Made by a program: the position numbers and the translations under genes. A DNA stretch of 38,232 bases from a virus, in IMG/VR virus record IMGVR_UViG_3300042691_031084, positions 1 to 38,232 of that record; one strand, given 5' to 3'. Positions 1,719 to 15,917 of the stretch are shown here, one piece after another. The notes under the pieces were generated by a model, which worked only from the letters and a program-made list of their open reading frames with translations, did no database searches and was not told where the DNA came from. How positions within the stretch are numbered: the stretch's first letter is position 1; every line of letters starts with the position of its first letter.

Positions 1719-2389
1719 TAGGCCGCCCTCCCCTTCTCCCATCCGTCGTACTGAGTGGCGGGGTCGTCTACGGAGACGCGGTCGAGATGCGCGCGACGTT
1801 CGCTGCGGCCCTTCTGCTTGTCTTCGTAGTCGGCAAGCTCGGCGTCGGTCATCATCGGGCGCAGGGCTGCCAAGGCTTCCGCAGACAGCCGGTACTCGCC
1901 AGCCTTAAGCTTCGCCTCTGCCTGCCTCACAGCGGCGTCTAGCTTGGCAAGGCGCTCGGCGGGGACAGCTTCACGGTCTGTGATGATCTCGCCCTTGCCG
2001 CGCTCCATGCCGTGGTCCTTGCGCCACTTGCCGACGATGGCATCAATGCGGGCCTGCTCCTCTGCGGTGCGCTCGCCGTCCCCAGGGGCCGGCAGAGCCT
2101 TCACCGGCTCCGGCGGGGAGTAGAGCTTGTCGAGGTAGGCGCAGACGTTCCCGAGCTGCGCAGGGCTGGGCAGGAAGCGGCGGTCAATGTCCGACACCTC
2201 GCCCCGGATGATCCGGCGCACGGCCCCTTCAATGGCGCGGAGCGAGTAGCCTTCGATGGCGATCAGGTAGGTCCCGACCGCAAGCGAGCCCTCGCCACGG
2301 TCGGCAGGGAACGCCTCGAAAAGGGCGAGCAGGGCAGACTTAGCCGCCGAAGGCGAGGCGGGGATACGATGGCTGTTCTGGTGGGTCAT
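1718..2389 (-). CDS. Possible replicative helicase loader-like protein, 223 aa
   Basis: Immediately downstream of the initiator gene. Residues about 15-85 contain a helical region (SALLALFEAFPADRG, then AVGTYLIAIEGYSLRAIEGA, then RRFLPSPAQLGNVCAYLD). The Y-L-x-A-I-E-G followed by R-F-x-P-S-x-A-x-L resembles phage helicase-loader or primosome proteins of the G39P type. The C-terminal half is charged and coiled-coil-like with no ATPase motif. By position, a loader that brings the host DnaB helicase to the origin is the best guess, but sequence support is modest. The ATG at 2389 overlaps the upstream gene by 50 bases; an in-frame ATG at 2413 is also possible. Confidence 0.55.
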   Translation of the reverse strand: MTHQNSHRIPASPSAAKSALLALFEAFPADRGEGSLAVGTYLIAIEGYSLRAIEGAVRRIIRGEVSDIDRRFLPSPAQLGNVCAYLDKLYSPPEPVKALPAPGDGERTAEEQARIDAIVGKWRKDHGMERGKGEIITDREAVPAERLAKLDAAVRQAEAKLKAGEYRLSAEALAALRPMMTDAELADYEDKQKGRSERRAHLDRVSVDDPATQYDGWEKGRAA

Positions 2390-2996
2390 CGGGGAGAATC
2401 CTGTGCAGTGCATCGGCTAGGCTGCGGCGGTTATTGGCTTGGCGATGGGGTGGGGCTGGTCGGGACAGCGAGATCGACCAATCGCTTTCCCAGAGTTGGC
2501 CGTTGAGCCATGCCTCGGCGGTCTTGACGAACTCGGTCCCGGTCTTTCCCGTGGCGTCGCAGTGCTCGGCGTAGCGCTTGGCGCCGTCGATGATCGTCTC
2601 GGGATCAACGCCAGCCTTGACCGCCGAACGAAACCGGCTCTCGGCGTTCTTGCGGCTGTTGCCGCCCTGCCGCTTCGGGAAAGCCGACCAGAAGCCGCCG
2701 AAAGCGTCATCGGCGATTTTCAGGGCGGGGGGACTATAGGGGGGTGGGTTTAGACTAACCTGAACGTTAACAGGATTAGGTTGAACGTCATTTAGGGAGG
2801 GGGTGTCACAGCAGTCACGCGGTGTCACAGTGACATTGCGTGACGAACGGTGACGGCGCTGACGATCCGCGTCCTTCGCGCGCTTTTCAGCAATGCGCTG
2901 CGCCTCACTGGCCGCGTGAGCGCGCACGACGGCGGCAAGCTGCTCAGGCGTGCAGCCCGCCGCCACCATGGCGTCAATGGTGTTTGAGAGGCTCAC
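2340..2996 (-). CDS. Phage replication initiator (lambda O-like organisation), 218 aa
   Basis: The N-terminal ~50 residues are helical and end in a basic stretch (AKDADRQRRHRSSRN). A Pro/Asn-rich linker of about 45 residues follows, then a C-terminal domain (GGFWSAFPKRQGGNSRKNAE, then FVKTAEAWLNGQLWESDW). F-W-x-A-F-P-K-R followed by T-x-A-x-W-L-N-x-x-x-W is typical of phage DnaA/O-type replication proteins, which bind origin repeats and recruit the helicase. The linker-coding DNA at 2723-2863 carries phased GTCAC/GTGAC repeats, as lambda carries its ori inside O. The start is a GTG at 2996 directly abutting the methyltransferase stop. Confidence 0.75.
   Translation of the reverse strand: MSLSNTIDAMVAAGCTPEQLAAVVRAHAASEAQRIAEKRAKDADRQRRHRSSRNVTVTPRDCCDTPSLNDVQPNPVNVQVSLNPPPYSPPALKIADDAFGGFWSAFPKRQGGNSRKNAESRFRSAVKAGVDPETIIDGAKRYAEHCDATGKTGTEFVKTAEAWLNGQLWESDWSISLSRPAPPHRQANNRRSLADALHRILPDDPPEQPSYPRLAFGG
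2723..2863. other. Candidate replication origin inside the initiator gene
   Basis: Three elements lie side by side. A plus-strand G-quadruplex motif occupies 2723-2748 (G-runs of 3, 6, 6 and 3). A relatively AT-richer spacer at 2749-2800 has two TGAACGT copies (2761, 2782). Finally there are three GTCAC at 2805, 2814 and 2824 and three GTGAC at 2830, 2840 and 2850, with a CTGAC at 2859. The arms mirror about base 2829: the inner two pairs are exact, including GTCACGC/GCGTGAC, and the outer pair is off by one base. Spacing is about 10 bp, one helical turn. Location inside an initiator gene matches lambda O/ori. Confidence 0.6.
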
Positions 2997-3896
2997 TCAA
3001 GCCACCATGCGCGACACGAGGTCGCCGGTCGTTCCGGTGTCCTCTGCCAACGTGAGATTGCGAACGGCCTGCTTGAAATATGCGGGCTTCAACTCAGTGC
3101 CGGCGAACTTGCGGCCGTGCTTGATCGACACGTAGCCTTCGGAACCGATGCCCATGAATGGCGAGTAGACCAGATCGTCAGGGTTGCTCCACAGGTGCAC
3201 GGCGCGTTCGATCACGTCGAGTTGCAGCGGGCATAGGTGGCGCTCGTCTTTGTCGTCGCGGGCCACGGCGACGTTAAGCACGTCAGTCTGATCGATGGTC
3301 ATCCAAACCGGCGAAGCGGCTTCCTGCCACCATGAGACGGGATAGACGCCAGGGTCATGCCGCACGGGCTCCGGCGTCTTGCCGTCGCTCTCCTTGCGGA
3401 ACACCATGAGATAGTCAGGCATGCCAACACGGACGCGGCTCCCGTCAGTGCGAAGCGTCTTGTAAAGCAGGCCGTGCGCTTTGGTCCGGGTCATCTCGAC
3501 CACAGGGCATTTCCAGATCGTGACGCGGGAGTGATAGACCCACCCCTCGTCCTCGTGGACCTGACGGATTAGGCTGGGCAGATCGAACAGACCAATCACG
3601 CCGTCCCGCTGCTTGCTCGTCGGCAGATCGGAGCAATGCACGGCGCTGATGCGGCCAGGCTTCGTCGCGCGCAGCAATTCGCGGACGAGAAAGCGATAGC
3701 GCTCTGCAAACTCGGCATGGTCAGCGACATTGCCCATGTCTCGCTCGCTCTCTGAATAGACGTAGAGCTGAGAGAACGGCGGCGAGTAGACGGAGAGGCC
3801 GATGCTGTTGTCGGGCATGGTCGCGGTAAATTCGACCGTATCCGCGTTGTATGCGGCAAAGCGGCTTCCGATGTGCTGATCAAGTACCTCGGTCAT
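2997..3896 (-). CDS. DNA methyltransferase (N4/N6, beta-type order), 299 aa
   Basis: An S-adenosylmethionine-dependent DNA amino-methyltransferase. The catalytic motif IV is SPPF at residues 38-41 (VYSPPFSQLY). The AdoMet-binding motif I is FMGIGSEG at 247-254, followed by GRKFAGTELKPAYF. Catalytic motif before AdoMet motif is the beta-class order, and SPPF favours N4-cytosine or a variant N6-adenine enzyme. The ATG at 3896 overlaps the helicase TGA (ATGA), so I discard a longer upstream frame. No restriction endonuclease partner is evident, so a solitary phage methyltransferase protecting or regulating phage DNA is likely. Target site unknown. Confidence 0.88.
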   Translation of the reverse strand: MTEVLDQHIGSRFAAYNADTVEFTATMPDNSIGLSVYSPPFSQLYVYSESERDMGNVADHAEFAERYRFLVRELLRATKPGRISAVHCSDLPTSKQRDGVIGLFDLPSLIRQVHEDEGWVYHSRVTIWKCPVVEMTRTKAHGLLYKTLRTDGSRVRVGMPDYLMVFRKESDGKTPEPVRHDPGVYPVSWWQEAASPVWMTIDQTDVLNVAVARDDKDERHLCPLQLDVIERAVHLWSNPDDLVYSPFMGIGSEGYVSIKHGRKFAGTELKPAYFKQAVRNLTLAEDTGTTGDLVSRMVA

Positions 3897-5290
3897 GACA
3901 CCATCCACGCCGGCATGGTGGCCGGCTTTTGCGGTTGATAGGAATGCAGGCGGGTTTCGGTGCGATGGGCGCGGGCCATGGCCTGCGTCATCTCGCGTTT
4001 CATGGCGTCGTGATCGCCGGCCTTGCGGCTCACAACGTCCCAAATGGCGGCCTCGGTGTCGGCAAAGACGACATGGCAATCGACGGGGCGGGCCTGGCGA
4101 AAGCGCCAATGGCGGCGCACGGCCTGATAGAAAGCCTCGTAGCTAAAACTCATGCCGGCAAAGACGGTTCGGGCGCAGTGCTGCCAGTTGAGGCCGAACC
4201 CTGCGATGCTGGCCTTCGTGACCAGAACGCGGATGGCGCCCTGCGTGAAAGCCGTGAGACGTTCCTCTTTCTGCTCTGCGGTCATGGAGCCGCGAACCTC
4301 GACGGCATCGGGGATCACAGCCATGATCGCATCGGCGTCGTAATCAGTCTCGACCCATACCGTCCAAGGCTCGCCCGGCTCTGCCGCCACGATGTCAGCC
4401 ACCATGCGGGCGCGGGCCTCGCACGTCAGACGCTTCTCTTGGTGGACGGATGTTGCCGACATATCCGGCATGCGGAACAGATGAGCTTGCCCGTCCTTTT
4501 CCTCGCCCCGGCCTTGCGTGCGGTCGGCGGCAACAAGGTGCCGGTGCATCCGCAGTTCCGGCATGTCGAAGCCGTCATCCGAAAAGCCGAGATCAGACGG
4601 CTTGCTGATGCATCGCGCCCATGACGCAACCCAATCCCAAAACGGGCGCACGCCGTGGCCTTTCAGCCGCCATGTGCCGGTGTCCGCGCTATCGTGCAGG
4701 AACCAGCGCATGAGCATCTGATCGCGCGTCATGACGCTCAGGAACTCGGCATGTGTGCCAAGCTCTGTATGGTCGTTCGGGGCGGGGGTCGCGGTGCAGG
4801 CCAGCCGATAAGGCGTGCGAGCGAACGTCTCGATCAGCCGCTTCGTGGTCTGGCCCGTAAAGCTCTTGAGGATCGAGCTTTCGTCCAAGATGATGCCGGC
4901 GAAGTCAGCCGGGTTGAAAAGGTGCAGCCGCTCGTAGTTGGCGATGACGATCTGCGCGTCCTGCGGCCCGCCCTCACGCGACACGACGGCATCAATTCCA
5001 ACGTCTTCGGCTTCGCGAGCGTGCTGGCGAGTGACGCCGAGCGGTGCCAGCATCAGCACGGGCTTATTCGTGCGGCTGACGACCTCTTGGCCCCAGGCTA
5101 GAGCGGAGCGCGTCTTGCCAAGCCCTGTATCAAGGAACATGGCCGACGAGCCTGCGCGTAGGCTAAACTCGACAGCCGCCTTCTGGTGCGGGAACAGCGA
5201 TGACGGCAAATCGAAATCGCCATCGAAGCCGGTTGGCTGGAATGCCCCGCGCGATGCGGCGATAATGTCGCGATAGCTTGCGAGGCTCAT
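3893..5290 (-). CDS. SNF2/SF2-type DNA helicase, 465 aa
   Basis: An ATP-dependent superfamily 2 helicase/translocase. Q-motif-like FPHQKAAVEF is at 33-42, Walker A DTGLGKT at 54-60, the Walker B/DEAH variant DESS at 136-139 (IILDESSILKSF) and motif III TATPAP at 166-171. The C-terminal lobe has motif V-like ASIAGFGLNWQHC and motif VI-like YQAVRRHWRFRQ. It lacks extra targeting domains and has the size usual for phage SNF2-like helicases. It sits between a VRR-NUC nuclease and a methyltransferase, coupled to both by ATGA overlaps, pointing to a recombination or replication-repair unit. The start ATG at 5290 is fixed by that overlap. Confidence 0.9.
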   Translation of the reverse strand: MSLASYRDIIAASRGAFQPTGFDGDFDLPSSLFPHQKAAVEFSLRAGSSAMFLDTGLGKTRSALAWGQEVVSRTNKPVLMLAPLGVTRQHAREAEDVGIDAVVSREGGPQDAQIVIANYERLHLFNPADFAGIILDESSILKSFTGQTTKRLIETFARTPYRLACTATPAPNDHTELGTHAEFLSVMTRDQMLMRWFLHDSADTGTWRLKGHGVRPFWDWVASWARCISKPSDLGFSDDGFDMPELRMHRHLVAADRTQGRGEEKDGQAHLFRMPDMSATSVHQEKRLTCEARARMVADIVAAEPGEPWTVWVETDYDADAIMAVIPDAVEVRGSMTAEQKEERLTAFTQGAIRVLVTKASIAGFGLNWQHCARTVFAGMSFSYEAFYQAVRRHWRFRQARPVDCHVVFADTEAAIWDVVSRKAGDHDAMKREMTQAMARAHRTETRLHSYQPQKPATMPAWMVS

Positions 5291-5649
5291 GCCGCATCCC
5301 TCGCCGCAGGACGGACGACGCCCCAAGCCTCTAGCGTCTTGATCGGCTCATCCCGCCCATAGGTGACGGCATAGGGGACGCCGTTGTGCTGGAGGATGTT
5401 GCCGACCGTGATCTGCTCAGGACGCAGGCGCCCGGTGGCCGTCTTCAATTCGATGTAGCCCGTGCGGTCGCGGAGGAACGGGCCTCCGACAACCATGATG
5501 TCAGGCAGGCCCTTGGTGAGCCCACGCTGGCCCATGGCGCCCATATTGGGGATGACAGCCACCAGCGTCCCTGGGATAGCCAGAGAGCGCCAGTGAGAGA
5601 TGACGGCAGCGGTGATCTCGCGCTCGCATGGGGCGGTGGAACGGCTCAT
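5287..5649 (-). CDS. VRR-NUC domain nuclease, 120 aa
   Basis: A small PD-(D/E)XK-type nuclease. The catalytic core is visible as GLPDIMVVGG (P49-D50) followed by YIELKTATGRL (E67, K69) and RPEQ, with an N-terminal helix carrying a likely conserved Glu (EREITAAVISHW). Standalone VRR-NUC proteins of this length are common in phages next to SNF2 helicases and are thought to cleave branched DNA such as Holliday junctions. The direct coupling to the helicase gene (ATGA) supports a joint role in processing recombination intermediates. Confidence 0.88.
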   Translation of the reverse strand: MSRSTAPCEREITAAVISHWRSLAIPGTLVAVIPNMGAMGQRGLTKGLPDIMVVGGPFLRDRTGYIELKTATGRLRPEQITVGNILQHNGVPYAVTYGRDEPIKTLEAWGVVRPAARDAA

Positions 5650-5852
5650 CGCTCCGTCTCCCTCACGCGCTCGCGCTCAATGAGCTGACGGGCCTGAGAG
5701 ACGGCGCGCTCAACGTCGCGCTCGATGTCGTCGTATTCTTCGCGGAGGCTGTTAGCGCGGGTTTCGTGCCCAAAGGTTGTCACGCGCGCTTCGCCGAAAG
5801 CGAACTGGCTCGGCTTGGCTGTCTTGTTGAAGCGGCGAACGATCGCGGTCAT
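5646..5852 (-). CDS. Small helical protein, 68 aa
   Basis: A short basic N-terminus (MTAIVRRFNKTAKPSQF) is followed by a strongly charged helix at residues 33-68 (NSLREEYDDIERDVERAVSQ and on to RERVRETER) with coiled-coil character. It is coupled by ATGA to genes on both sides, between the HNH endonuclease and the VRR-NUC nuclease. No family identified. It could be a small adaptor or DNA-binding cofactor, but nothing in the sequence proves it. Confidence 0.65.
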   Translation of the reverse strand: MTAIVRRFNKTAKPSQFAFGEARVTTFGHETRANSLREEYDDIERDVERAVSQARQLIERERVRETER

Positions 5853-6388
5853 GTGGCCAACCTTTCAACGCGGTCCGCAGTGCACGCGAACTGACCGAAG
5901 TGCTGTGAGGCGGCACGCAGATAAGCGCCGTGCGCTTCCCGAGCCGTGTCGAAATATCCGAGGAAGATCAGACGCTGCCCGACCTTGATCTGAGAGCGCC
6001 ACTTTTTGCCTTTGCGGCAAGCGTGATAGTAAGCGCCCTTCAAGCCAGATCGGCTGTTAGACTGGACGCCCTTGTTCATCTTCTGCTGCGCTGATGTCGC
6101 AAGCCGCAGGTTTGAAATCGCATTGTTTGACGGGTTTCCGTCTTCATGGTCGATCTCAATCTCGTCTGAGATCGACCCGTGCATCCATACCCATGCGATC
6201 CGATGTGCGGCCAACTGGGGAAAGCCGCGAACCCCAATGTAAATGTGCCCACTGCCGCGTCGCGTTCCCGCGACCTGTCCGAGCAGCGAGCGCGCGGGGC
6301 GGGGCTCCTTTGCCCAGCGGAAAATCCCCGTGGCAGCGTCGTAATCAAGCCATTCATGCAAAACGGGTTGAGATGGCAGGCTATTCAT
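5849..6388 (-). CDS. HNH homing-type endonuclease with AP2 domain, 179 aa
   Basis: The HNH nuclease region spans about 60-100: AAHRIAWVWMHG, then EIDHEDGNPSNNAISNLRLA, containing the D80-H81 pair, N85 and the N-x-x-x-N-L ending. A C-terminal AP2-like DNA-binding domain spans about 113-165 (SGLKGAYYHACRKGKKWRSQ, then FLGYFDTAREAHGAYLRAA). HNH-AP2 proteins are free-standing phage endonucleases that often act as mobile elements. The gene overlaps the DnaA-like gene by 8 bases rather than by ATGA, which may mark it as an insertion into a formerly continuous operon. Confidence 0.9.
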   Translation of the reverse strand: MNSLPSQPVLHEWLDYDAATGIFRWAKEPRPARSLLGQVAGTRRGSGHIYIGVRGFPQLAAHRIAWVWMHGSISDEIEIDHEDGNPSNNAISNLRLATSAQQKMNKGVQSNSRSGLKGAYYHACRKGKKWRSQIKVGQRLIFLGYFDTAREAHGAYLRAASQHFGQFACTADRVERLAT

Positions 6389-6896
6389 CGACAGCCTCTT
6401 GTTGCGCGTTCATTTGGGCAAGGATTGCGTCGATGGCGGCGCGGATGTCGTCGCGCCCTTGGGCCAGAAGTCTGTCGATTTTCCTGACCGCACTTAAAAT
6501 TGTAGTATGGTCCCTGCCACCGAGACGCCTTCCGATCTGCGGCAGCGACATCGTGGTGTGGTATCGCATCAGCCAACAGGCGACCATGCGAGGCAGGACT
6601 ATCTTCGCAGTCCTGCGCTCGCTGATGAGATCGATGCGAGGCACGTTGAACGACTGGCAAACCAGCTTGATGATCTGCGCGTAGTCAGCGACATCAAACG
6701 TGCCGGGTGTCGCCAATGCCAGCCAATCACGGATGTGATCAGGATCAACAATGACCGGCTCCGGCTTGGGCGCTGGCGGGGCGACCTTACGGACCGGATC
6801 GGGGCCGGGCTTGTAAAGCCGGGCGCGACGGGCGCGAGCGTCGGCAAGCATCTGGCCGACTGTCTCGGGGGTGTATTCGATCACGGGAACGGTCAT
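6381..6896 (-). CDS. DnaA domain IV-like DNA-binding protein, 171 aa
   Basis: The C-terminal region carries the signature helix-turn-helix of DnaA domain IV: ISERRTAKIVLPRMVACWLM, then SLPQIGRRLGGRDHTTIL and SAVRKI (residues 91-140). GGRDHTT is the DnaA-box recognition loop. The AAA+ ATPase domain is absent; instead there is a Pro-rich N-terminus and a DWLALATPG-containing linker. Such phage proteins could bind DnaA boxes to redirect or block host initiation, or act at the phage origin. The ATG at 6896 gives an ATGA overlap with the upstream ORF; the longer frame upstream is out of keeping with the family. Confidence 0.87.
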   Translation of the reverse strand: MTVPVIEYTPETVGQMLADARARRARLYKPGPDPVRKVAPPAPKPEPVIVDPDHIRDWLALATPGTFDVADYAQIIKLVCQSFNVPRIDLISERRTAKIVLPRMVACWLMRYHTTMSLPQIGRRLGGRDHTTILSAVRKIDRLLAQGRDDIRAAIDAILAQMNAQQEAVDE

Positions 6897-7168
6897 GACT
6901 GCTCCTGGCTTGGTTGCCACTTGGAGATGCGGTTGGTCGGGTGCTTGCGAGGCTGGCCGACCAGCGCGAAGAGAAAGGGCCGGGCGGCATGACACCGCCC
7001 GGCAAGTGCGCGCGGGCCGAGGGGGAGGATTACCCCGCGCGATTCAAAAAGCTCGGATGTGGCGGCACGCCGTTGCCTGCCACTTTGCGTCAGCGCGAAG
7101 GGAGAACGCGCAACGCAGGCCGTCCGGTCGGCCAAGGCAAATTCAGGAGAACGAAGCTGTGAGGTCAT
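6893..7168 (-). CDS. Doubtful small basic ORF, 91 aa
   Basis: An ORF linked on both sides by ATGA overlaps: its ATG at 7168 with the 28-aa peptide above and its TGA with the DnaA-like gene below. These overlaps are the main support, since otherwise about 270 bases would be non-coding in a very compact operon. The protein (MTSQLRSPEFALADRT, then SRGVILPLGPRALAGRC) is basic and lacks any recognisable domain, and its composition partly resembles an out-of-frame translation. It may be a real orphan gene or a spacer. Confidence 0.42.
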   Translation of the reverse strand: MTSQLRSPEFALADRTACVARSPFALTQSGRQRRAATSELFESRGVILPLGPRALAGRCHAARPFLFALVGQPRKHPTNRISKWQPSQEQS

Positions 7169-7251
7169 CGCAGCGTGCTCAGAGCAACCGCGATAAACGC
7201 GGAGAACGGCACGGCGATGAGCGCGGTGATGATGAGGGCGACGAGGGGCAT
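7165..7251 (-). CDS. Tiny single-pass membrane peptide, 28 aa
   Basis: The ATG at 7251 shares a base with the previous TGA (TGATG) and its own TGA overlaps the next ATG (ATGA). The peptide runs MPLVALIITALIAVPFSAFI then AVALSTLR, almost entirely hydrophobic with one C-terminal Arg, so it is a predicted membrane helix. Coupled starts on both sides and a clean hydrophobic composition argue that it is translated. Role unknown; small phage membrane peptides in early operons can modulate host membrane proteins. Confidence 0.5.
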   Translation of the reverse strand: MPLVALIITALIAVPFSAFIAVALSTLR

Positions 7252-7928
7252 CAGGCGGCTCCCAATTCGACAGGGAACAGCCATGAGGGGATCTCAGCAG
7301 CCCGGTACCATTCAGGGGAGACAGATGCCCGATGCAAAAGCTGATGGATCGCCCATTCGTGCAACATCGTCCCATTCTCGTCGTGGATGATGTCGATGGG
7401 CGTGCTGTGCTGACGGGTCAGGGATTTGGCGCGGGCCGTAGGGTTTTTGGAGAACCCAATCTTGACGATCCCGGGCCGCGCCCCAGCTACGGCGACGTAG
7501 ACTTTACCGACAATTTTTTTATCGCTTGGCCCGAGATAGCGAGCCCATGCGTCCGCCGCATCGGCAACGCCAAAGTTGACTACGTCCGCAATGGCTTTTT
7601 CGACATGGGACCAAGAGAGGCCCAGCAGCCGGCAAGCAAGCATGAAGCTGCGCCGTCCCTCATGGTCGTCAATACCTTGCAGGTTGGCCGCAGCTACCAA
7701 GGCGGCACAATCTTCAAGCAGGCAATACGCCCGCATTTTGACGACCCCAAAGTCGGCATCGATGCTATAGGGGTTTTCCTTACCAAACTGCGGCCCAACC
7801 CTGATCCATTCGGGGCGAACAAATTCAGCGCGCCGCTTAGCCATTATCGCCTCCAGCTCGGCGGCGAACTTGAGAGTCTTTTTTGTCTCGGCATGAAGCC
7901 GCTTAATGCGGGCGGTGAGCGTTTCCAT
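7251..7928 (-). CDS. T5orf172/GIY-YIG-like protein, 225 aa
   Basis: The C-terminal ~80 residues have the T5orf172/MUG113 pattern, a relative of GIY-YIG nucleases: KVYVAVAGARPGIVKIGFSK, then NPTARAKSL and a later H-E-W-x-I-H-x-L-L segment ending in SPEWYRA. The N-terminal ~60 residues are charged helices. The middle region carries helical AALVAAANLQ and SFMLACRLLGLSWSHVEKA, an HTH-like look. The fold predicts a nuclease or DNA-interacting domain; catalytic competence is uncertain. The ATG at 7928 is set by TGATG with the upstream gene. Confidence 0.75.
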   Translation of the reverse strand: METLTARIKRLHAETKKTLKFAAELEAIMAKRRAEFVRPEWIRVGPQFGKENPYSIDADFGVVKMRAYCLLEDCAALVAAANLQGIDDHEGRRSFMLACRLLGLSWSHVEKAIADVVNFGVADAADAWARYLGPSDKKIVGKVYVAVAGARPGIVKIGFSKNPTARAKSLTRQHSTPIDIIHDENGTMLHEWAIHQLLHRASVSPEWYRAAEIPSWLFPVELGAA

Positions 7929-8191
7929 CACGCGGCCTCGCCGCGTACGTGTACGTGTGTGAGGCGGTCGTACTCTTCGACCATGCGCTCGGCTTCGCTC
8001 TGCTTTTCGAGAGAAGCGGGAGTTTCCTGTTTCTGCCGAGCACGGATCGTGCGGATGGCAAGCCCAAGCGCAGACTTATTGATGCCGGCCTCTTGGGCTT
8101 CGGCATACCGCGCCTTTTTCGAGACCTTGATCTCGTCCTCCTCGGCATGAAGCGCAAGGATGTCGTCCATGATCTGGCGAAGCTCGCTCAC
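7928..8191 (-). CDS. GapR-like (DUF2312-related) nucleoid protein, 87 aa
   Basis: The arrangement of helices, with DDILALHAEEDEIKVSKK, then YAEAQEAGINKSALGLAIR and a final ERMVEEYDRL, resembles GapR/DUF2312. In that family an acidic helix is followed by Y-A-E-A, a short turn, K-A-L and an R-x-R helix. GapR is an alphaproteobacterial dimeric/tetrameric protein that binds overtwisted AT-rich DNA and aids replication. Family assignment is by pattern only. The start is a GTG at 8191 in a GTGA overlap with the Cro-like gene. A phage copy next to replication genes may assist phage DNA replication. Confidence 0.6.
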   Translation of the reverse strand: MSELRQIMDDILALHAEEDEIKVSKKARYAEAQEAGINKSALGLAIRTIRARQKQETPASLEKQSEAERMVEEYDRLTHVHVRGEAA

Positions 8192-8409
8192 GCAGCGGCC
8201 TCCTCGCGCTTTGCGGGGCCGAAGACATCAGGCCGAAGCTCATGGCGGGAGATGCCGGTGATGGCCTCGATGGTGTTGGCAAGCTGCGGGGATGGCTTGC
8301 GCCGCCCCTTCTCCAGATCGTGGAGGTAGCCGGGGCTGGTGCCGAGCTTGGCGGCCATCCCTTCGAGGGTCAGCGCGTTGGCTGATCGATATGCGAACAG
8401 TTGTTCCAT
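8188..8409 (-). CDS. Cro/YdaS-like HTH regulator, 73 aa
   Basis: A small helix-turn-helix protein: MEQLFAYRSANALTLEGMAA, then KLGTSPGYLHDLEKGRRKP and an ending ITGISRHELRPDVFG typical of YdaS/Cro-type regulators. It is the first gene of the leftward early operon and starts 11 bases from operator O1 (8420-8434). Its ATG at 8409 is preferred to an upstream in-frame start that would run into the operators. By size and position it is the lytic-side (Cro-like) repressor, competing with the product of 8504 at the 16-bp-spaced operators. Confidence 0.85.
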   Translation of the reverse strand: MEQLFAYRSANALTLEGMAAKLGTSPGYLHDLEKGRRKPSPQLANTIEAITGISRHELRPDVFGPAKREEAAA

Positions 8410-8419
8410 GAGGATCAAT

Positions 8420-8450
8420 TTCGCACATGGCGACATTCGCGTCTAGCGAA
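8420..8450. promoter_or_regulatory. Operator cluster A (O1, O2) in divergent immunity region
   Basis: Two 15-bp sites of pattern TTCGC-N5-GCGAA: O1 at 8420-8434 (last base deviates) and O2 at 8436-8450 (perfect). Their centres, 8427 and 8443, are 16 bp apart. The reverse complement of this block matches 8883-8913 at 27 of 31 positions. The block lies between the Cro-like start (8409, minus) and the repressor start (8504, plus), so it should control both divergent promoters. Confidence 0.85.
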
Positions 8451-8491
8451 ATTTTCGGGATGGGGTGAACGATTTGATTTTGGCCGCGCGA

Positions 8492-8497
8492 TATAAA
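8492..8497 (+). promoter_or_regulatory. Possible -10 element for repressor transcript
   Basis: TATAAA ends 6 bases before the ATG at 8504, so transcription from it would give a nearly leaderless mRNA, as for lambda cI from PRM. No good -35 is visible at normal spacing (TTGATT at 8474 is only 12 bases away), consistent with an activated promoter or with a chance match. Confidence 0.3.
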
Positions 8498-8503
8498 CGG
8501 GCC

Positions 8504-8824
8504 ATGGATCGCATCGGCCCCCGCAAGCCCATCCGCTGGTTCCTGAGAGAGTGGCGCAAGCACAGACGCTTGACGCTGCAACAGGTCGCGGCGCGGCTCG
8601 ACACGTCCCCTAGCGTCCTGTCGGACCTAGAGAACGGCAAAAGCCGGATGAATGACGACTGGATTGCTGGCTTCGCATGGGCTTACCAGGTCGAACCGAG
8701 CGACCTCTTGCGCGATCCTGCCATGCCGACGCGCGACGAACTGCTATCCATGGGCACGCCCGAACAACTTCGCGCCGCTATGAGCCTCATCAAGACAATG
8801 AAGACAGGCACGGACGGGCAATAG
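8504..8824 (+). CDS. CI-like phage repressor (HTH only), 106 aa
   Basis: A helix-turn-helix domain spans about 8-65: IRWFLREWRKHRRLTLQQVA, then ARLDTSPSVLSDLENGKSRM and a W-x-x-x-F-A-W-A-Y-x-V helix. It is flanked on both sides by operator clusters, as expected for a lysogeny repressor. There is no C-terminal S24/LexA-like self-cleavage domain, so induction cannot occur by classic RecA-stimulated autocleavage. I chose the ATG at 8504; a GTG at 8465 would add 13 residues. Which of this gene and 8188-8409 maintains lysogeny is inferred from position, not proven. Confidence 0.78.
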   Translation: MDRIGPRKPIRWFLREWRKHRRLTLQQVAARLDTSPSVLSDLENGKSRMNDDWIAGFAWAYQVEPSDLLRDPAMPTRDELLSMGTPEQLRAAMSLIKTMKTGTDGQ

Positions 8825-8866
8825 CTCAGTCCTGACATGCCCTGTCGCGATCGGCTGAAAAATAAT

Positions 8867-8913
8867 TTCGCTATCTGCGAATTTCGCTAGACACGACATT
8901 CGCCATGTGCGAA
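8867..8913. promoter_or_regulatory. Operator cluster B (O3, O4, O5) before rightward operon
   Basis: Three sites of pattern TTCGC-N5-GCGAA: O3 at 8867-8881 (perfect), O4 at 8883-8897 (half-site degenerate) and O5 at 8899-8913 (perfect). Centres at 8874, 8890 and 8906 are exactly 16 bp apart, as in cluster A. The cluster ends 31 bases before the first rightward gene, so it should repress that promoter. No convincing -35/-10 pair could be assigned. Confidence 0.85.
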
Positions 8914-8944
8914 AACTCTCTCACACCACCACGGGGAGAGAGAG

Positions 8945-9133
8945 ATGACCGCCACCAGCCAGGCCCACTTCGAGATCGTCCGCGACGGCCACTTCTTCCG
9001 CGCCGTCAACGCCGCAACCGGCTACCGCTCCGCGCTGGCCACCTCTGCCTCTCAGGCCGGCAAGCTCATCCAGAAGATCGCCGGCAAGGACGCTCACCGC
9101 GTCGCCGCCGAGCGCTTTCTGTCTGCCGCCTGA
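8945..9133 (+). CDS. Small protein, first gene of rightward operon, 62 aa
   Basis: It begins at the ATG at 8945 after a strong purine-rich ribosome-binding site (GGGGAGAGAGAG). The product is small and basic with a beta-strand pair (AHFEIVRDGHFFRAVNA) followed by Ala-rich helices (SASQAGKLIQKIAGKD). As the first gene under operator control it would be expressed immediately on induction; roles such as antirepressor or host takeover factor are possible but unproven. No known family. Confidence 0.7.
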   Translation: MTATSQAHFEIVRDGHFFRAVNAATGYRSALATSASQAGKLIQKIAGKDAHRVAAERFLSAA

Positions 9134-9143
9134 CCCTCACCTA

Positions 9144-9161
9144 GGAGCCCTTCGGGGCTCC
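9144..9161 (+). terminator. UUCG-capped hairpin after first rightward gene
   Basis: A perfect 7-bp stem (GGAGCCC / GGGCTCC) closed by a TTCG tetraloop, 10 bases after the stop at 9133. There is no T-run, so it may be an RNA-stabilising or attenuating hairpin instead of a full intrinsic terminator. Confidence 0.5.
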
Positions 9162-9194
9162 GAATGAGTGCCAGACACACCGGGAGAGCAAGAC

Positions 9195-9512
9195 ATGCCC
9201 GCCACCCTCACATACCCCGCCCGCCACGCGACGCACTTCGTCAACGAGATCGACAAGCTCGCCTGCGCTGCTCGCGACCTCATCACGGTTCTGGAGGAGG
9301 TGCAGGGCTTCCGCACCTGCGATCCCCGCCCCTCCGATGTCGAGCGGTTCAACCGCCAGCAGGCCGAGATTGCTGGGCTCATGGAAGCCTACATCACCGC
9401 TGTCCATCGTGAAGCCGATGACCACGACCTTGAGGAAGACGGCAACGCCGACATCATCCAGTGCTCCGGCTTTGATTGCCGGGGGTGGAAGATTTGCGGG
9501 GAGGACGCGTGA
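9195..9512 (+). CDS. Phage hypothetical protein, 105 aa
   Basis: I chose the ATG at 9195, which has GGGAGA about 7 bases upstream; an in-frame GTG at 9168 lacks a site. The protein has two helical segments (VNEIDKLACAARDLITVLEE and FNRQQAEIAGLMEAYI), an acidic stretch, and a Cys cluster at the end (CSGFDCRGWKIC) that may bind a metal. Unknown function. Confidence 0.65.
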   Translation: MPATLTYPARHATHFVNEIDKLACAARDLITVLEEVQGFRTCDPRPSDVERFNRQQAEIAGLMEAYITAVHREADDHDLEEDGNADIIQCSGFDCRGWKICGEDA

Positions 9513-9712
9513 TGGGAAAGATCACATACGGCAACGTCAAAACGTCGCCCTTTGAGATCCCGGTTTATCTCGACGGGGTCAGGGTTGGAGCCATCCGCAT
9601 TTCAACGGCGGCGAATGGGAACCCCTACTACTACAAGCCTAAGAGCGGCAAGCGCGGCCCGTATCACGATCTCATGCACCAAGTGAAACGCGAAATCGAG
9701 GGCCGGGCATGA
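9512..9712 (+). CDS. Small beta-rich protein, 66 aa
   Basis: The ATG at 9512 shares a base with the previous TGA (TGATG). The sequence is beta-rich and aromatic (SPFEIPVYLDGVRVGAIRIS, then NPYYYKPKSGKRGPYHDLMH) with a C-terminal helix (QVKREIEGRA). The basic, aromatic middle could contact nucleic acid, but no family is recognised. Confidence 0.65.
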   Translation: MGKITYGNVKTSPFEIPVYLDGVRVGAIRISTAANGNPYYYKPKSGKRGPYHDLMHQVKREIEGRA

Positions 9713-9825
9713 TCACCGACCTCCGCGCTCTCATCTCCAACGCCTTTCAGGTCTGCGTGCTGCTTGGGGTGGCTTGGGTGATCTGTATGGCCTTCGTCAT
9801 TTTCGATGCAACAGCGGGGCAGTGA
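9709..9825 (+). CDS. Small single-pass membrane protein, 38 aa
   Basis: ATG at 9709, ATGA overlap with the preceding stop; TGA at 9823-9825, one base before the next ATG. The peptide (MITDLRALISNAFQ, then VCVLLGVAWVICMAFVIF and DATAGQ) has one clear transmembrane helix. Its tight coupling in the operon supports it as a real gene. Role unknown. Confidence 0.55.
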   Translation: MITDLRALISNAFQVCVLLGVAWVICMAFVIFDATAGQ

Positions 9826-9826
9826 G

Positions 9827-10087
9827 ATGAGAAAGATTAACGACGGCGGCCCCATTCACCCGATCCCCGAAGTCCGCGACATGGACGGGAATGGTATCAT
9901 GGCCGGATGGAACGGCATGTCCCTGCGCGACTGGTTCGCGGGGCAGGCTCTGACTGGCCTCATGGTCATGATCTCGGCAGACAAGCACGAGTTGCCCGAA
10001 CCCAAAGGTCCGGTGGGCTGCGCCATTGAGGCTTATCGGCTTGCCGACGCCATGCTTGCCGAGCGCTCCAAGGCGGAGGGCCGCTGA
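9827..10087 (+). CDS. Phage hypothetical protein with GMSLRDWFAGQAL motif, 86 aa
   Basis: The central G-M-S-L-R-D-W-F-A-G-Q-A-L sequence (about residues 30-45) followed by a helix matches a short conserved pattern seen in many phage and prophage proteins of unknown function. The N-terminus has Pro/Gly-rich turns (DGGPIHPIPEVRDMDGNG). The start at 9827 lies one base after the stop of the membrane peptide. Its role in phage biology is unknown. Confidence 0.75.
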   Translation: MRKINDGGPIHPIPEVRDMDGNGIMAGWNGMSLRDWFAGQALTGLMVMISADKHELPEPKGPVGCAIEAYRLADAMLAERSKAEGR

Positions 10088-10308
10088 TGAACCTCCGCCG
10101 CATCGTCTCCCGCATCTGCGTCTGGTGGGCATCCCGCCGCGTTCAAAAGCAGCTTCCCGAGATAGCGGAGCTGAGCCGCGAGATCGAAGCCCGCCGCCGT
10201 CATCACCGCCCTGTGCGCCGTCTGATGAGAGCACAGCGCGACCTTATCCATGCCCGGCTCGCAGCCGAGTTGGGCAAGGCCCCACCCGTCAAGAGGATCG
10301 CACGATGA
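10087..10308 (+). CDS. Small basic protein, 73 aa
   Basis: Very Arg-rich (MNLRRIVSRICVWWASRRVQ, then REIEARRRHHRPVRRLMRAQ), predicted all-helical. The positive charge suggests nucleic-acid or membrane-surface binding. TGATG coupling on the start side. No family recognised. Confidence 0.6.
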   Translation: MNLRRIVSRICVWWASRRVQKQLPEIAELSREIEARRRHHRPVRRLMRAQRDLIHARLAAELGKAPPVKRIAR

Positions 10309-10505
10309 GCCCCGCTCTCGGATTTGCCTATCTCAGCTTGGCGACGACCAGCATTCGCATCGCCAACGATTACCACCAGTCAGCGCTCCGCACCGATAGC
10401 GACCGCTGGCGCAAGGATGACATCGCGGAGTGGAAGCACCTGAAAATGCAGGCCCGCCGCTCCATCGTCGCTTCCTCTAACTGCGATAGGCCGAGGCTCC
10501 CATGA
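10305..10505 (+). CDS. Small protein, 66 aa
   Basis: The ATG at 10305 overlaps the previous stop (ATGA) and its own TGA overlaps the next ATG at 10502. The N-terminal half is mildly hydrophobic (MSPALGFAYLSLATTSIRIA), and the rest is polar helix (DRWRKDDIAEWKHLKMQ). No family recognised. The coupled overlaps are the main evidence that it is a gene. Confidence 0.55.
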   Translation: MSPALGFAYLSLATTSIRIANDYHQSALRTDSDRWRKDDIAEWKHLKMQARRSIVASSNCDRPRLP

Positions 10506-11266
10506 ACGTTCAAGTTACCTCTGGCCTCATCGGCCATAACAACCCTCCGGCTGAGATTGAGCCGACGCCCTTTGAGATGTCGGAGGTTGAGATTGGCGAT
10601 CTGTACGCGGAAGCCAAGGGCTTCCTTGACGGCGAGCAGATCAACAATCAGGCGATGGCGGATGCCGTCTCCAAGCTGATCGATGATCTGCGGAAAGCCG
10701 CGAAGCTGGCCGACGAGCGCCGCATTGAGGAAAACCGGCCTTTCGATGAAGGCAAGGCGGCTGTGCAGGCTCGCTATGCCCCGCTGATCGCTGACACCAA
10801 GACTACGAAGGGCAAGGCCGTCCTCGCCATTGAGATTGCCAAGAAGGCGCTCGCCCCGTGGTTGCAAAAGCTGGAGGACGAAAAGCGCGCGGCTGCGGCT
10901 GCGGCTCGCGCTGCGGCCGAGGAAGCCGAGCGCAAGGCGCGGGAGGCTCTAGCCGCCACGAAGGCGACCGAAGACCTTGCCGCCCGTGAAGCCGCAGAGG
11001 CGATGCTTCGCGACGCTCAGGCCGCCGATGCTGCTGCGACCAAGGCTGAGAACGACAAGGCGCACGCCAAGGGCGGCACGCGGGCCATGGGGCTGCGTAG
11101 CGTCTGGCGGGCCGAGATGACCGATGGGCGAGCCGCTGCGGGCCATTACTGGCGCGAGCGCCGGGCTGACGTGGACGCGTTCTTCCAAGGGCTCGCGGAT
11201 GCCGACGTGCGCGCCGGCAAGCGATCGATCCCTGGCTTCCTAGTCCTCGAAACACGGGTGCTCTGA
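10502..11266 (+). CDS. Coiled-coil protein of the recombination module, 254 aa
   Basis: The N-terminus contains IGHNNPP, common in alphaproteobacterial phage proteins near annealing-protein genes. Residues about 20-110 are charged helices, and a long Ala/Glu/Lys helix at about 118-185 (AAAAAARAAAEEAERKAREA and beyond) predicts a coiled coil. A compact C-terminal domain follows (GLRSVWRAEMTDGRAAAGHY, then GKRSIPGFLVLETRVL). It lies two genes upstream of ERF and may be a partner of single-strand annealing, but biochemical role is unknown. Confidence 0.75.
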   Translation: MNVQVTSGLIGHNNPPAEIEPTPFEMSEVEIGDLYAEAKGFLDGEQINNQAMADAVSKLIDDLRKAAKLADERRIEENRPFDEGKAAVQARYAPLIADTKTTKGKAVLAIEIAKKALAPWLQKLEDEKRAAAAAARAAAEEAERKAREALAATKATEDLAAREAAEAMLRDAQAADAAATKAENDKAHAKGGTRAMGLRSVWRAEMTDGRAAAGHYWRERRADVDAFFQGLADADVRAGKRSIPGFLVLETRVL

Positions 11267-12204
11267 TGAAAGCTAAAACGATCAAGGCCGTTCTGCGCAA
11301 GAAGGTGGACGATTGGCTTTCGTCTATTGAAGACGAGGCTGTCCGAAAGCTGGCAGCGGACAACACCATCGTAACCGGAGGCGCTATCGCGTCCATGCTC
11401 CTCAAAGAGCCGGTCAACGACTTCGATGTCTATTTCCGCACGCATGAGGCGACGTTGGCCGTAGCCAAATATTACGTCAGCCGCTTCGACTGCAAGAACA
11501 AGCACGGCATATCGGTTCCGATCTTCGTCCAGCATGAGGCCGACCGTATCCAGATCGTCGTCAAGTCAGCGGGCATCGCCAGCGAGGAAGGCGCGGACGT
11601 TCCCTACGACTATTTCGAAGGCCGGCCCGACGAAGCGGCCGATGCCTACGTTGGCGAGGTCATGAGCGACCCCGGCGAAATTGCTGACGCTCAGGAGGAT
11701 ATTGAAGCGGCGGCGCAGGCGACGGACGATGGGAAGCCGCCATACCGGCCAATTTTCCTTAGCACAAATGCCATCACGCTCAGCCATAAAATGCAGATCG
11801 TGCTCCGGTTCTTTGGCAAGCCCGACGAGATTCACGAGAATTACGATTTCGTCCACTGCACCAATTACTGGACGAGTTGGGATAGCGAACTCACGCTGAG
11901 GCAGGCGGCCTTGGAATCTCTGCTTGCCCGCGAGCTTCGTTACGTCGGCAGCAAATATCCCGTCTGCTCGGTCATCCGGCTCCGCAAGTTCATCCGCCGC
12001 AACTGGACCGTCAACGCGGGTCAGATGCTCAAGATGATGATGCAGATCAGCGCGCTCGATCTCACCAATCATGCGGTCTTGCAGGACCAACTTACCGGCG
12101 TCGATGCGGCGTATTTCGTGCAGCTTGTTTCGAAGCTGAAAGAAAAAGACGGCGACAAGGTCAACGCGGCCTATCTGGTCGAAATCATTGATCGGATGTT
12201 CTGA
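11266..12204 (+). CDS. Predicted nucleotidyltransferase-fold phage protein, 312 aa
   Basis: The N-terminal region shows the pol-beta-type nucleotidyltransferase signature: IVTGGAIASMLLKEPVNDFD (T-G-G at 37-39) then VYF, with D52 and D54 as candidate metal ligands. A third acid may lie in the segment near RIQIVVKSAG. The rest (TLSHKMQIVLRFFGKPDEIH, then helical RQAALESLLARELRYVGSKY) resembles the helical partner domains of such enzymes. Substrate is unknown. Conserved relatives occur in many phages. Position just before ERF suggests a link with DNA metabolism, but an RNA or protein target is equally possible. Confidence 0.65.
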   Translation: MKAKTIKAVLRKKVDDWLSSIEDEAVRKLAADNTIVTGGAIASMLLKEPVNDFDVYFRTHEATLAVAKYYVSRFDCKNKHGISVPIFVQHEADRIQIVVKSAGIASEEGADVPYDYFEGRPDEAADAYVGEVMSDPGEIADAQEDIEAAAQATDDGKPPYRPIFLSTNAITLSHKMQIVLRFFGKPDEIHENYDFVHCTNYWTSWDSELTLRQAALESLLARELRYVGSKYPVCSVIRLRKFIRRNWTVNAGQMLKMMMQISALDLTNHAVLQDQLTGVDAAYFVQLVSKLKEKDGDKVNAAYLVEIIDRMF

Positions 12205-12971
12205 TGTCAGCCAAAATCGCAACCGCACTGCATGCCGTCATGGAAGCCTGTGGCTACGTCCAGAAGACGGGCAAGAACTCTTTCCATGGCTACAAGTATG
12301 CCGGAGAATCCGATCTGCTCGACAAGCTGCGCCCGGCGATGGTGGCTAATGGGCTGCTTCTACTCCCCTCTGGCAAGTCCGTCACCGGCCCCGACGAGCA
12401 CGGCAACGTCACCGTCGCCATCGAATACACGCTGGCGCACAAGGACGGCGAAATCTGGCCTGAGAAGCTGGTGGCATTCGGCTGCGGCAATGACCGCGCC
12501 AAGAACGGCAGCGTTGGCGATAAGGGCGTCTACAAGGCCCTGACCGGCGCTAACAAGTATCTTCTGTTCAAGCTCTTTCAGATCGAGACGGGCGATGATC
12601 CCGAGCTTGACGACAGAGCCCATGAATCCGCGCCGATGACCGGCCGGAACGTGCCCGTCTCGTCTGGACTTCGCACATCGAGCGAGGCGGGCACGCCCCT
12701 TTCAGCGGAAAGAAGCCGAACCAACGTCGCTCATTCTGCAAACCGCGCAGCCGAAGCTACTTCGGCCATTGGCGAAACAGGCGCACCCCTTTCAGAGCCG
12801 GCGAAGGCATTCATCTTCGCTGCCGACAAGGCCAAGTCCGCTGACGAGCTTCGCCAGTGGATGGACGACGTAGAGCCCGAACTGTCCAAGCTCCCGCCCC
12901 ATGAAGTCGCTGCCGTGAAGGACCATGCCCGCTTTGTCTGGCGTGCGCTGTCTCAGAAGGAAGCGGCGTGA
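12204..12971 (+). CDS. erf: ERF-family single-strand annealing protein, 255 aa
   Basis: The N-terminal ~140 residues match the ERF family: an early helix (LHAVMEACGYVQKTGKNSF then HGYKYAGE), then LRPAMVANGLLLLPSG, a beta region with IEYTLAHKDGE, and GDKGVYKALTGANKYLLFKL. ERF proteins form rings on single-stranded DNA and promote annealing and genome circularisation. A variable low-complexity linker of about 55 residues and a short helical C-terminal domain (AKSADELRQWMDDVEPEL) follow, as in other ERF proteins. TGATG coupling at the start. Confidence 0.88.
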   Translation: MSAKIATALHAVMEACGYVQKTGKNSFHGYKYAGESDLLDKLRPAMVANGLLLLPSGKSVTGPDEHGNVTVAIEYTLAHKDGEIWPEKLVAFGCGNDRAKNGSVGDKGVYKALTGANKYLLFKLFQIETGDDPELDDRAHESAPMTGRNVPVSSGLRTSSEAGTPLSAERSRTNVAHSANRAAEATSAIGETGAPLSEPAKAFIFAADKAKSADELRQWMDDVEPELSKLPPHEVAAVKDHARFVWRALSQKEAA

Positions 12972-13756
12972 TGGGCAGGCAAACCAAGTTTCCGGCGGAT
13001 GTCTCAGCTATGCCGGCTGAGGAGCTGCGCGCCCTATACGCTCGACTCCTTGAAAGCCGGAACGGTCTCCAGCGCAACAATGCGGCGCTGACCAAGTGGC
13101 TATCAAACATCAACCAATCCGTGACCGTACTCTCCTGCGAGGGGTCATTAGCCTTTCAGGCGATGGCCGAGAAAGCCGGCGTGCGCGGCCATCCTTCGGT
13201 ATCAGAGGCCGTCAGGCTATTTGACGCAATCGCGCACCCGCAGTGGGGTGACGGGAAGGATGCGCCCTCTTTCGAGTGGCCTAGCGATTGGGATTTTGAC
13301 AAGGCAGACGAATGGAGCGGCGACGCCGATATGTCGCTGAACAGCCCGCTTGCGACCGCTATTGAGTTCATAGGCGACATCCGATCTTACCTCCCTGATT
13401 GGGCGCGTGAGCGCGGTGAAGAAGTCTGCGCCGCAGCGCAATCAGCGCTTATCGGCCAGATTGATGAAACAAAGATGCGCGCTGGGTTTACGCCGAAAAG
13501 AGCGCACATCCCGGCCCAAACGCATTACCGCTCCATGGATCGGGACCAGCTCATTGATCTTTTGGGGTCGGTGAGTTGGGCGGCGCTCGATCTCGCGCAG
13601 GATATGCACTTCGCCAACAACATGTTGCGGCGCGACCTCAGGGCGGCAGCATATCGGCGGATATGCTCAGACCTTTACGCGCTTTGCGACATGAGCATGG
13701 AACCCCGCTGCGGTTCAATTGACATCAAAGTCATGGGTGGGGGGATGCCGTTTTGA
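12971..13756 (+). CDS. Phage hypothetical protein, 261 aa
   Basis: The ATG at 12971 (TGATG) is preferred; a GTG at 12968 would also work. The protein is mostly helical and starts with an HTH-length segment (MPAEELRALYARLLESRNGL). A W/D-rich middle follows (EWPSDWDFDKADEWSGDAD), then helices with SMDRDQLIDLLGSVSWAALD and a Cys-containing end (DLYALCDMSMEPRCG). No known motif. Its size and place between ERF and HNH suggest a DNA-metabolism accessory protein, but nothing proves this. Confidence 0.7.
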   Translation: MGRQTKFPADVSAMPAEELRALYARLLESRNGLQRNNAALTKWLSNINQSVTVLSCEGSLAFQAMAEKAGVRGHPSVSEAVRLFDAIAHPQWGDGKDAPSFEWPSDWDFDKADEWSGDADMSLNSPLATAIEFIGDIRSYLPDWARERGEEVCAAAQSALIGQIDETKMRAGFTPKRAHIPAQTHYRSMDRDQLIDLLGSVSWAALDLAQDMHFANNMLRRDLRAAAYRRICSDLYALCDMSMEPRCGSIDIKVMGGGMPF

Positions 13757-14220
13757 CCGCCCCCGCCGCCATCACCGCGCAGCTCGTAGACGTTCGCAAC
13801 GTCTCGGCGCATCGCTGCGTGCGCCTGGAGCTTCACGTCCCCGCCGAACAGGCCGGGCTTGTCATGGCCGCATTCGGTTGGCCGACAATGGCAGACCCGG
13901 TGCCCGTCGCTCTGGCGAGGCTCCAGACGACACCGGAGCCCATCGCCAAGCCAGAGGCCCCGAAAGAGCGCCGCCCCTTCTCAGAGCTTCCGTATAGCCA
14001 GCAAGCGGCTCTGCGCTGTGCGGAGCCCGGTTACGAGCATTTTCTGTGGGACACCCATGGCCTCGGTCAGGGAGCATGCCCGGCTGAGGTGGTCGCGCTT
14101 GTCCGGCATGAATGCGGCGTCTCCTCCCGTTCCGAGATCATCAAAGGCACTCCCGCTGGAGACAAGTGGGAAGCCCTAGAGGCGGAATACTACGCGTGGC
14201 AACGCGGTGGCATCCGATGA
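13753..14220 (+). CDS. Phage hypothetical protein, 155 aa
   Basis: The TTG start at 13753 overlaps the previous stop as TTGA. The N-terminal half has a beta-sheet pattern (RCVRLELHVPAEQAGLVMAA then FGWP), similar to phage proteins found after annealing proteins. The C-terminal half has Y-x-x-F-L-W-x-T-H and a Cys/His-bearing helix (VRHECGVSSRSEII). Single-strand-DNA processing is a possible role, without direct motif support. Confidence 0.7.
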   Translation: MTAPAAITAQLVDVRNVSAHRCVRLELHVPAEQAGLVMAAFGWPTMADPVPVALARLQTTPEPIAKPEAPKERRPFSELPYSQQAALRCAEPGYEHFLWDTHGLGQGACPAEVVALVRHECGVSSRSEIIKGTPAGDKWEALEAEYYAWQRGGIR

Positions 14221-14615
14221 GCCGAGCTGTCGCAGAGTGGCGGGGCAAGACGCCAGACACGCCAGCCCCGCCGCGCGTTAGGCTTCGCGTGTTCCAAGCT
14301 CACGGCGGCATCTGCCACATCTCCAAGCGCAAGATAGCAGCCGGCGAGCCATGGCAGCTTGAACACGTCATCGCGCTCATCAACGGCGGCGAGAATCGCG
14401 AAAGCAATCTCGCCCCCGCGCTGATCGACAAGCACCGCGAAAAGACGCGCGAGGACCTAGCGGAGAAATCCGCTGTCTATCGGAAAGCCAGCAAGCATGC
14501 CGGCATCCGCCCGCCTCCCCAGATCCAATCGCGCGGCTTCCCGAAAGCGGCCCGCCAAGCCCGCGCGACGACACCACTAAGCAAGCCATTGCCGCCGAGA
14601 AGGAGCGCGACATGA
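14217..14615 (+). CDS. HNH endonuclease, 132 aa
   Basis: A compact HNH domain: RLRVFQAHGGICHISKRKI, then GEPWQLEHVIALINGGENRE and SNLAPA. The E-H pair at the first histidine, N in GGENRESN and N-L-A-P define the beta-beta-alpha metal fold. The C-terminal tail is basic and Pro-rich. Phage HNH proteins of this size nick or cut DNA during replication, recombination or packaging. Coupled by ATGA to genes on both sides. Confidence 0.88.
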   Translation: MSRAVAEWRGKTPDTPAPPRVRLRVFQAHGGICHISKRKIAAGEPWQLEHVIALINGGENRESNLAPALIDKHREKTREDLAEKSAVYRKASKHAGIRPPPQIQSRGFPKAARQARATTPLSKPLPPRRSAT

Positions 14616-14776
14616 ACTGGAATGCGCCTTTGTTGAGCCCGGCGACCGCCGCGTATCTAGCGCTCGCACTAGCTGTCATCGCCGCCCTCTCCTGGCTCGT
14701 CGGACGGATGCTCTCCTATCGGGAGCCTTCCAAGGACGAAGACCCCATCGAGCGGCAGTTCAAGGAGATCAAGTGA
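14612..14776 (+). CDS. Small single-pass membrane protein, 54 aa
   Basis: ATGA at the start and TGATG at the end tie it to its neighbours. Residues 10-32 (PATAAYLALALAVIAALSWL then VGR) form one transmembrane helix followed by a charged tail (EDPIERQFKEIK), an N-out/C-in type single-pass design. Unknown function. Confidence 0.6.
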   Translation: MNWNAPLLSPATAAYLALALAVIAALSWLVGRMLSYREPSKDEDPIERQFKEIK

Positions 14777-15147
14777 TGACCGACATGGAACGCCTAAAAA
14801 ACACGGCCCTGCGTGTCGCGCGGCTGGCAGCGCTCAACGCGCCTGCGATCATCATCGCGGATCAAGTCAACCTGCTTGCCAAGCGAACCGACGCGCTGTG
14901 CCAGGCAGTCGGAACGACGCTGTCCGACGAGCGCGAGCGGAACGCCCGGCTGATGGCTGAGATCGACGCGCAGGGTCCGCTTTCGGCGGAAGAGGAAGAG
15001 CAGTTCCAGACAGAGCAGGCCGCGTACGACGCTGCCGCTGAGAAGGCCCAAAAGGCCGCCGGCTACTCCGATGTCGAGTGGGGCCGGCTGGATCACAGCT
15101 ACCGCTTCGATCTCGTCATGGAGCATTTCGTGGAGCCGAGCCATTGA
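14776..15147 (+). CDS. Helical acidic protein, 123 aa
   Basis: The start is the ATG at 14776, sharing a base with the previous TGA. A basic first helix (MERLKNTALRVARLAALN) is followed by a long charged region with coiled-coil character (SAEEEEQFQTEQAAYDAAAE then KAQKAAGY) and a W-containing end (EWGRLDHSYRFDLVMEHF). No family recognised. It is probably a cytoplasmic accessory protein. Confidence 0.65.
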   Translation: MTDMERLKNTALRVARLAALNAPAIIIADQVNLLAKRTDALCQAVGTTLSDERERNARLMAEIDAQGPLSAEEEEQFQTEQAAYDAAAEKAQKAAGYSDVEWGRLDHSYRFDLVMEHFVEPSH

Positions 15148-15916: not shown

Positions 15917-15917
15917 C

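Follow-up and report, generated by a model that had tools for sequence, protein, structure and literature searches.

Our analysis identified an operator system on both sides of an HTH repressor gene in a 38,232-base sequence, a whole virus record referred to here as the window. The arrangement very probably corresponds to the lambda-type immunity region of a temperate phage in a mirrored, compact form, in which HTH2 would be the CI-type protein and HTH1 the Cro-type protein, with operators on two outward promoters. The operator system is real and its logic is the ordinary lambda-type one; its compactness and the tiling of its sites are unusual, and it is a member of a large family. Judging from their sequences, dozens of related viruses share this layout but space the sites differently, and in some of them the site sequence differs as well. 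The literature searched contained no description of this operator or of its family.

HTH1 and HTH2 are encoded by divergent genes, and both are XRE-type proteins (Table 1). Five TTCGC-N5-GCGAA sites lie around HTH2, and direct reading and a pattern scan agreed on all of them, with the centers and the exact 16-bp pitch described in an earlier sequence-only reading of this DNA. Operator B has three sites (one degenerate), and operator A has two plus a TTCGG half-site at 8454 that the earlier reading had overlooked; a site is present at this same position, -50 from the HTH2 start, in L017, L032, L039, L045, and L068. That the motif would be non-random in the genome held for the clustered array: none of 400 dinucleotide shuffles of the window contained a 16-bp pair with a total of one mismatch or fewer, or a 16-bp triple with two or fewer; within 600 bp, the window has four sites that deviate by no more than one mismatch, compared with a shuffle maximum of three. 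It did not hold for the loose motif, as 33 sites with at most two mismatches were seen across the whole window vs. 39.8 expected, so the weight is carried by clustering and not by the loose motif. The rest of the window has one site with a single mismatch (22827) and one perfect site (5790-5804), the latter outside the immunity region and probably a chance occurrence.

Table 1. Features of the immunity region and its surroundings (window positions, except for the last row, which gives positions in other contigs).
Feature	Position	Strand	Sequence or match	Remarks
Leftward region after HTH1	2340-8191	-		DnaA-C-domain protein, HNH, resolvase-like, helicase, methyltransferase, replication initiation
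HTH1, 73 aa, putative Cro-like regulator	8188-8409	-	HTH_31/HTH_3; phrog_35 repressor	First gene of leftward (replication) operon
Predicted -10, leftward promoter	8417-8422	-	GAAATT	7 nt before HTH1 ATG; 17 nt from -35-like box; weak consensus match
Operator A, site O1	8420-8434		TTCGCACATGGCGAC, 1 mismatch	Within predicted leftward promoter spacer
Operator A, site O2	8436-8450		TTCGCGTCTAGCGAA, perfect	Center is predicted -35 box
Predicted -35, leftward promoter	8440-8445	-	TAGACG	Aligns with TTGAC/TTGCG of relatives
Operator A, degenerate third position	8454-8468		TTCGG half-site only, 4 mismatches	-50 from HTH2 start
Possible -10, leaderless HTH2 promoter	8492-8497	+	TATAAA	From sequence only; no -35 match; unconserved in relatives
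HTH2, 106 aa, putative CI-like repressor without peptidase domain	8504-8824	+	HTH_31 3e-11; phrog_7241/phrog_3/phrog_4	
Operator B, site O3	8867-8881		TTCGCTATCTGCGAA, perfect	Counterpart in relatives 29-35 bp upstream of O1
Operator B, site O2	8883-8897		TTCGCTAGACACGAC, 2 mismatches	Overlaps predicted -35 box
Predicted -35, rightward promoter	8888-8893	+	TAGACA	Aligns with TTGAC of relatives
Operator B, site O1	8899-8913		TTCGCCATGTGCGAA, perfect	Within predicted rightward promoter spacer
Predicted -10, rightward promoter	8911-8916	+	GAAAAC	17 nt from -35-like box; weak consensus match
Rightward early region	8945-17193	+		Exonuclease (10502), ERF annealing protein (12204), HNH (14112), integrase (16147)
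Bacteroidetes tandem arrays	L111 3649-3909; L112 3163-3423; L118 6367-6504; L134 151-366			

A -35-like TAGAC, also missed by the earlier reading, sits in the center of both middle sites. Since a sigma70 consensus scan found no promoter in the window, where both the -35 (TAGAC) and -10 boxes are weak, promoter placement rests on a comparative alignment, in which the outermost site served as the anchor and each locus was read in the outward direction. In both clusters of the relatives, O1 is preceded at a distance of 8 or 11-12 bases by a TTGAC/TTGCG -35-like box and followed immediately by an A/T-rich box, which is CTAT-like at the leftward -10 position. An outward -35-like box at a fixed offset from O1 was found in 33 of 45 loci for operator A and 30 of 41 for operator B (binomial p 1e-12 to 5e-20 per offset group), with 0/45 and 0/41 in the respective inward controls. 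The outermost site of each cluster would fill the spacer of a predicted outward promoter, and the 16-bp pitch would arise because one site is centered in the -35/-10 spacer and its neighbor on the -35 box. For HTH2 itself, the relatives revealed no conserved promoter.

To gather relatives, viral contigs were scanned for two perfect TTCGC-N5-GCGAA sites separated by a gap of up to 30 bp, which returned 85 contigs; in many of these, two such clusters enclose an HTH gene. Filtering at 90% HTH2 identity left 42 non-redundant loci in which the HTH gene has sites on both sides. The sequence-only reading had predicted that related phages would show the same pattern and spacing: the pattern recurred, the 16-bp spacing did not. 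This comparison supports its proposal that the sites would behave as HTH-repressor operators on both sides of the gene. Named phages with an HTH2-like protein have the same divergent HTH pair; in nearly all group-A loci, 89-98 bp separate the HTH1 and HTH2 start codons, and in most of them O1 of operator A is found 83-85 bp ahead of the HTH2 start. The relative set was mostly gathered with the operator motif and is therefore biased toward loci having it, with a search based on HTH1 as a smaller, independent arm; the counts still include a few automatically tabulated loci, such as L205, that probably match by chance. A protein search of viral contigs with HTH2 alone gave no confirmed relative.

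When operators on both sides were tested for exact palindromes, L005, L007, L008, and L013, in which operator A consists of imperfect palindromes or direct repeats, did not pass, and the result was unconvincing for L222, L223, L225, and L230. Among these, Rhizobium phage RHph_I1_23 (L007 2380-2440) and Sinorhizobium phage PBC5 (L008 2395-2440) have TTTCAGTCA direct repeats, not palindromes, between the same divergent HTH genes. In bacterial genome contigs, the paired-site pattern recovered mostly unrelated palindromic arrays among the matches listed, including intergenic tandem TTTCGC-N5-GCGAAA repeats in Bacteroidetes genomes, which recur every 40-41 bp, vary in their centers, and are unrelated to the phage operators.

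The operators of one phage are more alike than those of different phages. The N5 of O1 is identical in operators A and B in 7 of 35 loci within a phage vs. 1.3% between phages, and the flanks of the two operators are also more similar within one phage than between phages; none of 5000 permutations reached either value, and the flank similarity of the window (0.60) is at the high end. A sibling phage (L219/L239), with a 95% identical exonuclease, carries TTTCC-N5-GGAAA operators on both sides, and its two operator-B sites enclose a TTGACA. Its HTH1 has 90% identity in the tail and 20% in the DNA-binding part, and its HTH2 62% in the tail vs. 43% in the DNA-binding part. The same pattern is seen in L232 with the operator GAAAG-N5-CTTTC, and in Pseudanabaena phage Pam5, read by eye, with TTGCG-N5-CGCAA. 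By sequence comparison, the L219/L239 sibling is a natural immunity swap, and the fact that both HTH domains change together with all operators is the strongest indication from sequence that the two proteins read the sites.

The role of HTH2 as the protein that would maintain lysogeny is based on homology of the proteins in its slot. Its predicted model has a five-helix HTH domain plus two more helices (pLDDT 84.7), and neither the domain search nor the predicted structure revealed a peptidase domain; a fold search returned only general XRE relatives, including DdrO, ClgR, C.AhdI, and P22 c2, none below E 0.001. The roles could be swapped, with HTH1 as the prophage repressor, HTH2 as a Cro-like protein encoded first in the rightward early operon, and operator B as a second, downstream control point, as both are small XRE proteins, HTH2 has the same direction as the early operon, and repressor families also match HTH1. 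We consider this assignment improbable, however, given that several proteins in the HTH2 slot contain the CI-type peptidase (Peptidase_S24 above the curated cut-off in L232, L230, and L223, and weakly in L056), that group-B loci have HTH2 with no HTH1 homologue detected, and that a separate predicted operator-promoter lies between HTH2 and the early operon. The placement of the repressor gene inside an inverted repeat, proposed in the earlier reading, was reproduced: 27 of 31 positions of 8420-8450 match 8883-8913 in reverse complement, and the extended repeat (35 nt, 8419-8453/8880-8914) is 89% complementary. Such a repeat around one gene could also mark an invertible element that flips the repressor gene, a reading to which we give almost no credence. 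DNA inversion was rejected because adjacent HTH pairs in the unfiltered table occur in one orientation only, all of them divergent, and no recombinase gene adjoins the repeat, which is accounted for by two predicted outward promoters, that is, two copies of one operator-promoter pointing apart.

Compatible with the lambda-type reading is the added claim that the 16-bp pitch is itself a working principle, in which dimers on opposite faces of the DNA would form a cooperative continuous array and the arrays would loop over the gene. The pitch is exact in both clusters of the window, and operator A of L010, L012, L020, L033, L081, and L139 has a pitch of 16 or 17 bp with, as in the window, a perfect or nearly perfect middle site centered on the -35 box. 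Across the relatives, however, the pitch of operator A is 16 bp in 2 loci, 17 in 5, 24-26 in 17, 34-35 in 6, and 56-78 in 7, and that of operator B is 29-35 bp in 39 of 40 loci. Most relatives have no middle site, with dominant pitches of 26, 30-31, or 33-35 bp, so 16 bp is not the family rule; among the compared loci, a middle site in operator B is present only in the window, and with 2 mismatches. In the window itself, the perfect sites of operator B (O3 and O1) are 32 bp apart, about three turns, and on the same face. The opposite-face geometry advanced in the sequence-only reading was not upheld as a principle, and the claim as a whole seems unlikely. The separation between clusters varies from 382 to about 1,190 bp, and in one case is 2,075 bp, so a loop of fixed length is not conserved; a loop between the clusters is possible.

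In the proposed lambda-type switch, the leftward promoter would fire through HTH1 into the replication genes, as lambda PR does, and the rightward promoter into the exonuclease/ERF/integrase operon, as lambda PL does. Each promoter would carry the same palindromic operators, with O1 in the -35/-10 spacer, O2 centered on the -35 box, and O3 further upstream. HTH2 would bind these operators and turn both early promoters off, HTH1 would read the same sites in lytic growth, and the HTH2 promoter would presumably also be under control of this system.

As in lambda (cro-OR-cI-rex-OL-N), the putative CI gene lies between two clusters that overlap predicted outward early promoters, next to a divergent Cro-type gene, with one arm leading to replication and the other to recombination and integration. 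The geometry had been called unlike that of lambda, which is correct for the pitch and not for the layout, as the order Cro-operator-CI-operator-recombination operon is that of lambda, mirrored. In lambda, a CI loop joins two groups of three operators across about 2.3 kb, and CI complexes were also imaged on DNA in which 401 bp separate OL from OR (PMC5880393). In contrast, the window has about 480 bp between its outermost sites, 15-bp operators at their 16-bp pitch, and one site centered on the -35 box; unlike lambda CI, the 106-aa HTH2 has no self-cleaving S24 domain, and it is not classed as a lambda CI member.

Acetobacter phage phiAP1 (LC644972.1) shares with the window the gene order and TTCGC-N5-GCGAA on both sides of the repressor gene, and has TTGACC between its two operator-B sites; it differs in the pitch of operator B (34 bp, without a middle site) and of operator A (60 bp). 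The phiAP1 record has no annotated operators. Direct-repeat operators are the criterion for a P2-type C/Cox switch, and the C operator of Rhizobium phage 16-3 is ACAA-N-TTGT, in more than one geometry. HTH2 resembles P2-type C/Cox systems in being a small repressor without a peptidase domain, whereas the operators of the window are inverted repeats. Phage 16-3 is a temperate phage of an alphaproteobacterial host, with a studied repressor C and immC and immX regions (PMC10460002). In Pam5, the layout of gp52/gp53 is like that of the window and the HTH1 tail has 82% identity, but the operator is a different one; this pair has been described as a putative lysogeny pair and likened to P2 C/Cox by predicted structure (PMC9382816). 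Pam5 (L013), recorded as a cyanophage, has a GcrA-like gene together with an immunity region related to that of the window, which would fit an alphaproteobacterial host.

We tentatively suggest, with somewhat more doubt than confidence, that these loci represent a widespread modular immunity system of phages, several of them with alphaproteobacterial hosts, in which small peptidase-free HTH repressors would act on short palindromes positioned by rule on two outward promoters, and both HTH domains and all operators would be exchanged together while tails and gene order are kept. The 16/17-, 26-, 30-31-, and 33-35-bp classes would then be distinct cooperative assemblies, the window being the only one among the compared loci with a -35-centered middle site in both clusters. 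The comparison turns a spacing oddity into a readable rule (an outward -35 box, an operator in the promoter spacer, and a repressor gene between), which could allow sequence-based prediction of the immunity groups of many uncultured phages. The operator-swapped siblings offer a ready test of a joint change in CI/Cro specificity, and most of these repressors have no peptidase domain; the route of prophage induction could be tested in this system.

Regarding the flanking operons, integrase and helicase queries gave no match in four relatives. A gene in the leftward operon (6381-6995, minus strand) encodes 204 aa that include a DnaA C-terminal DNA-binding domain. After the stop codon of the first rightward gene, a GGAGCCC-TTCG-GGGCTCC hairpin with its flanks (9130-9186) has 96% identity in the sibling L239 and 89% in Pam5, where it lies behind different genes, and may be an RNA element, for instance a nut-like or processing site.
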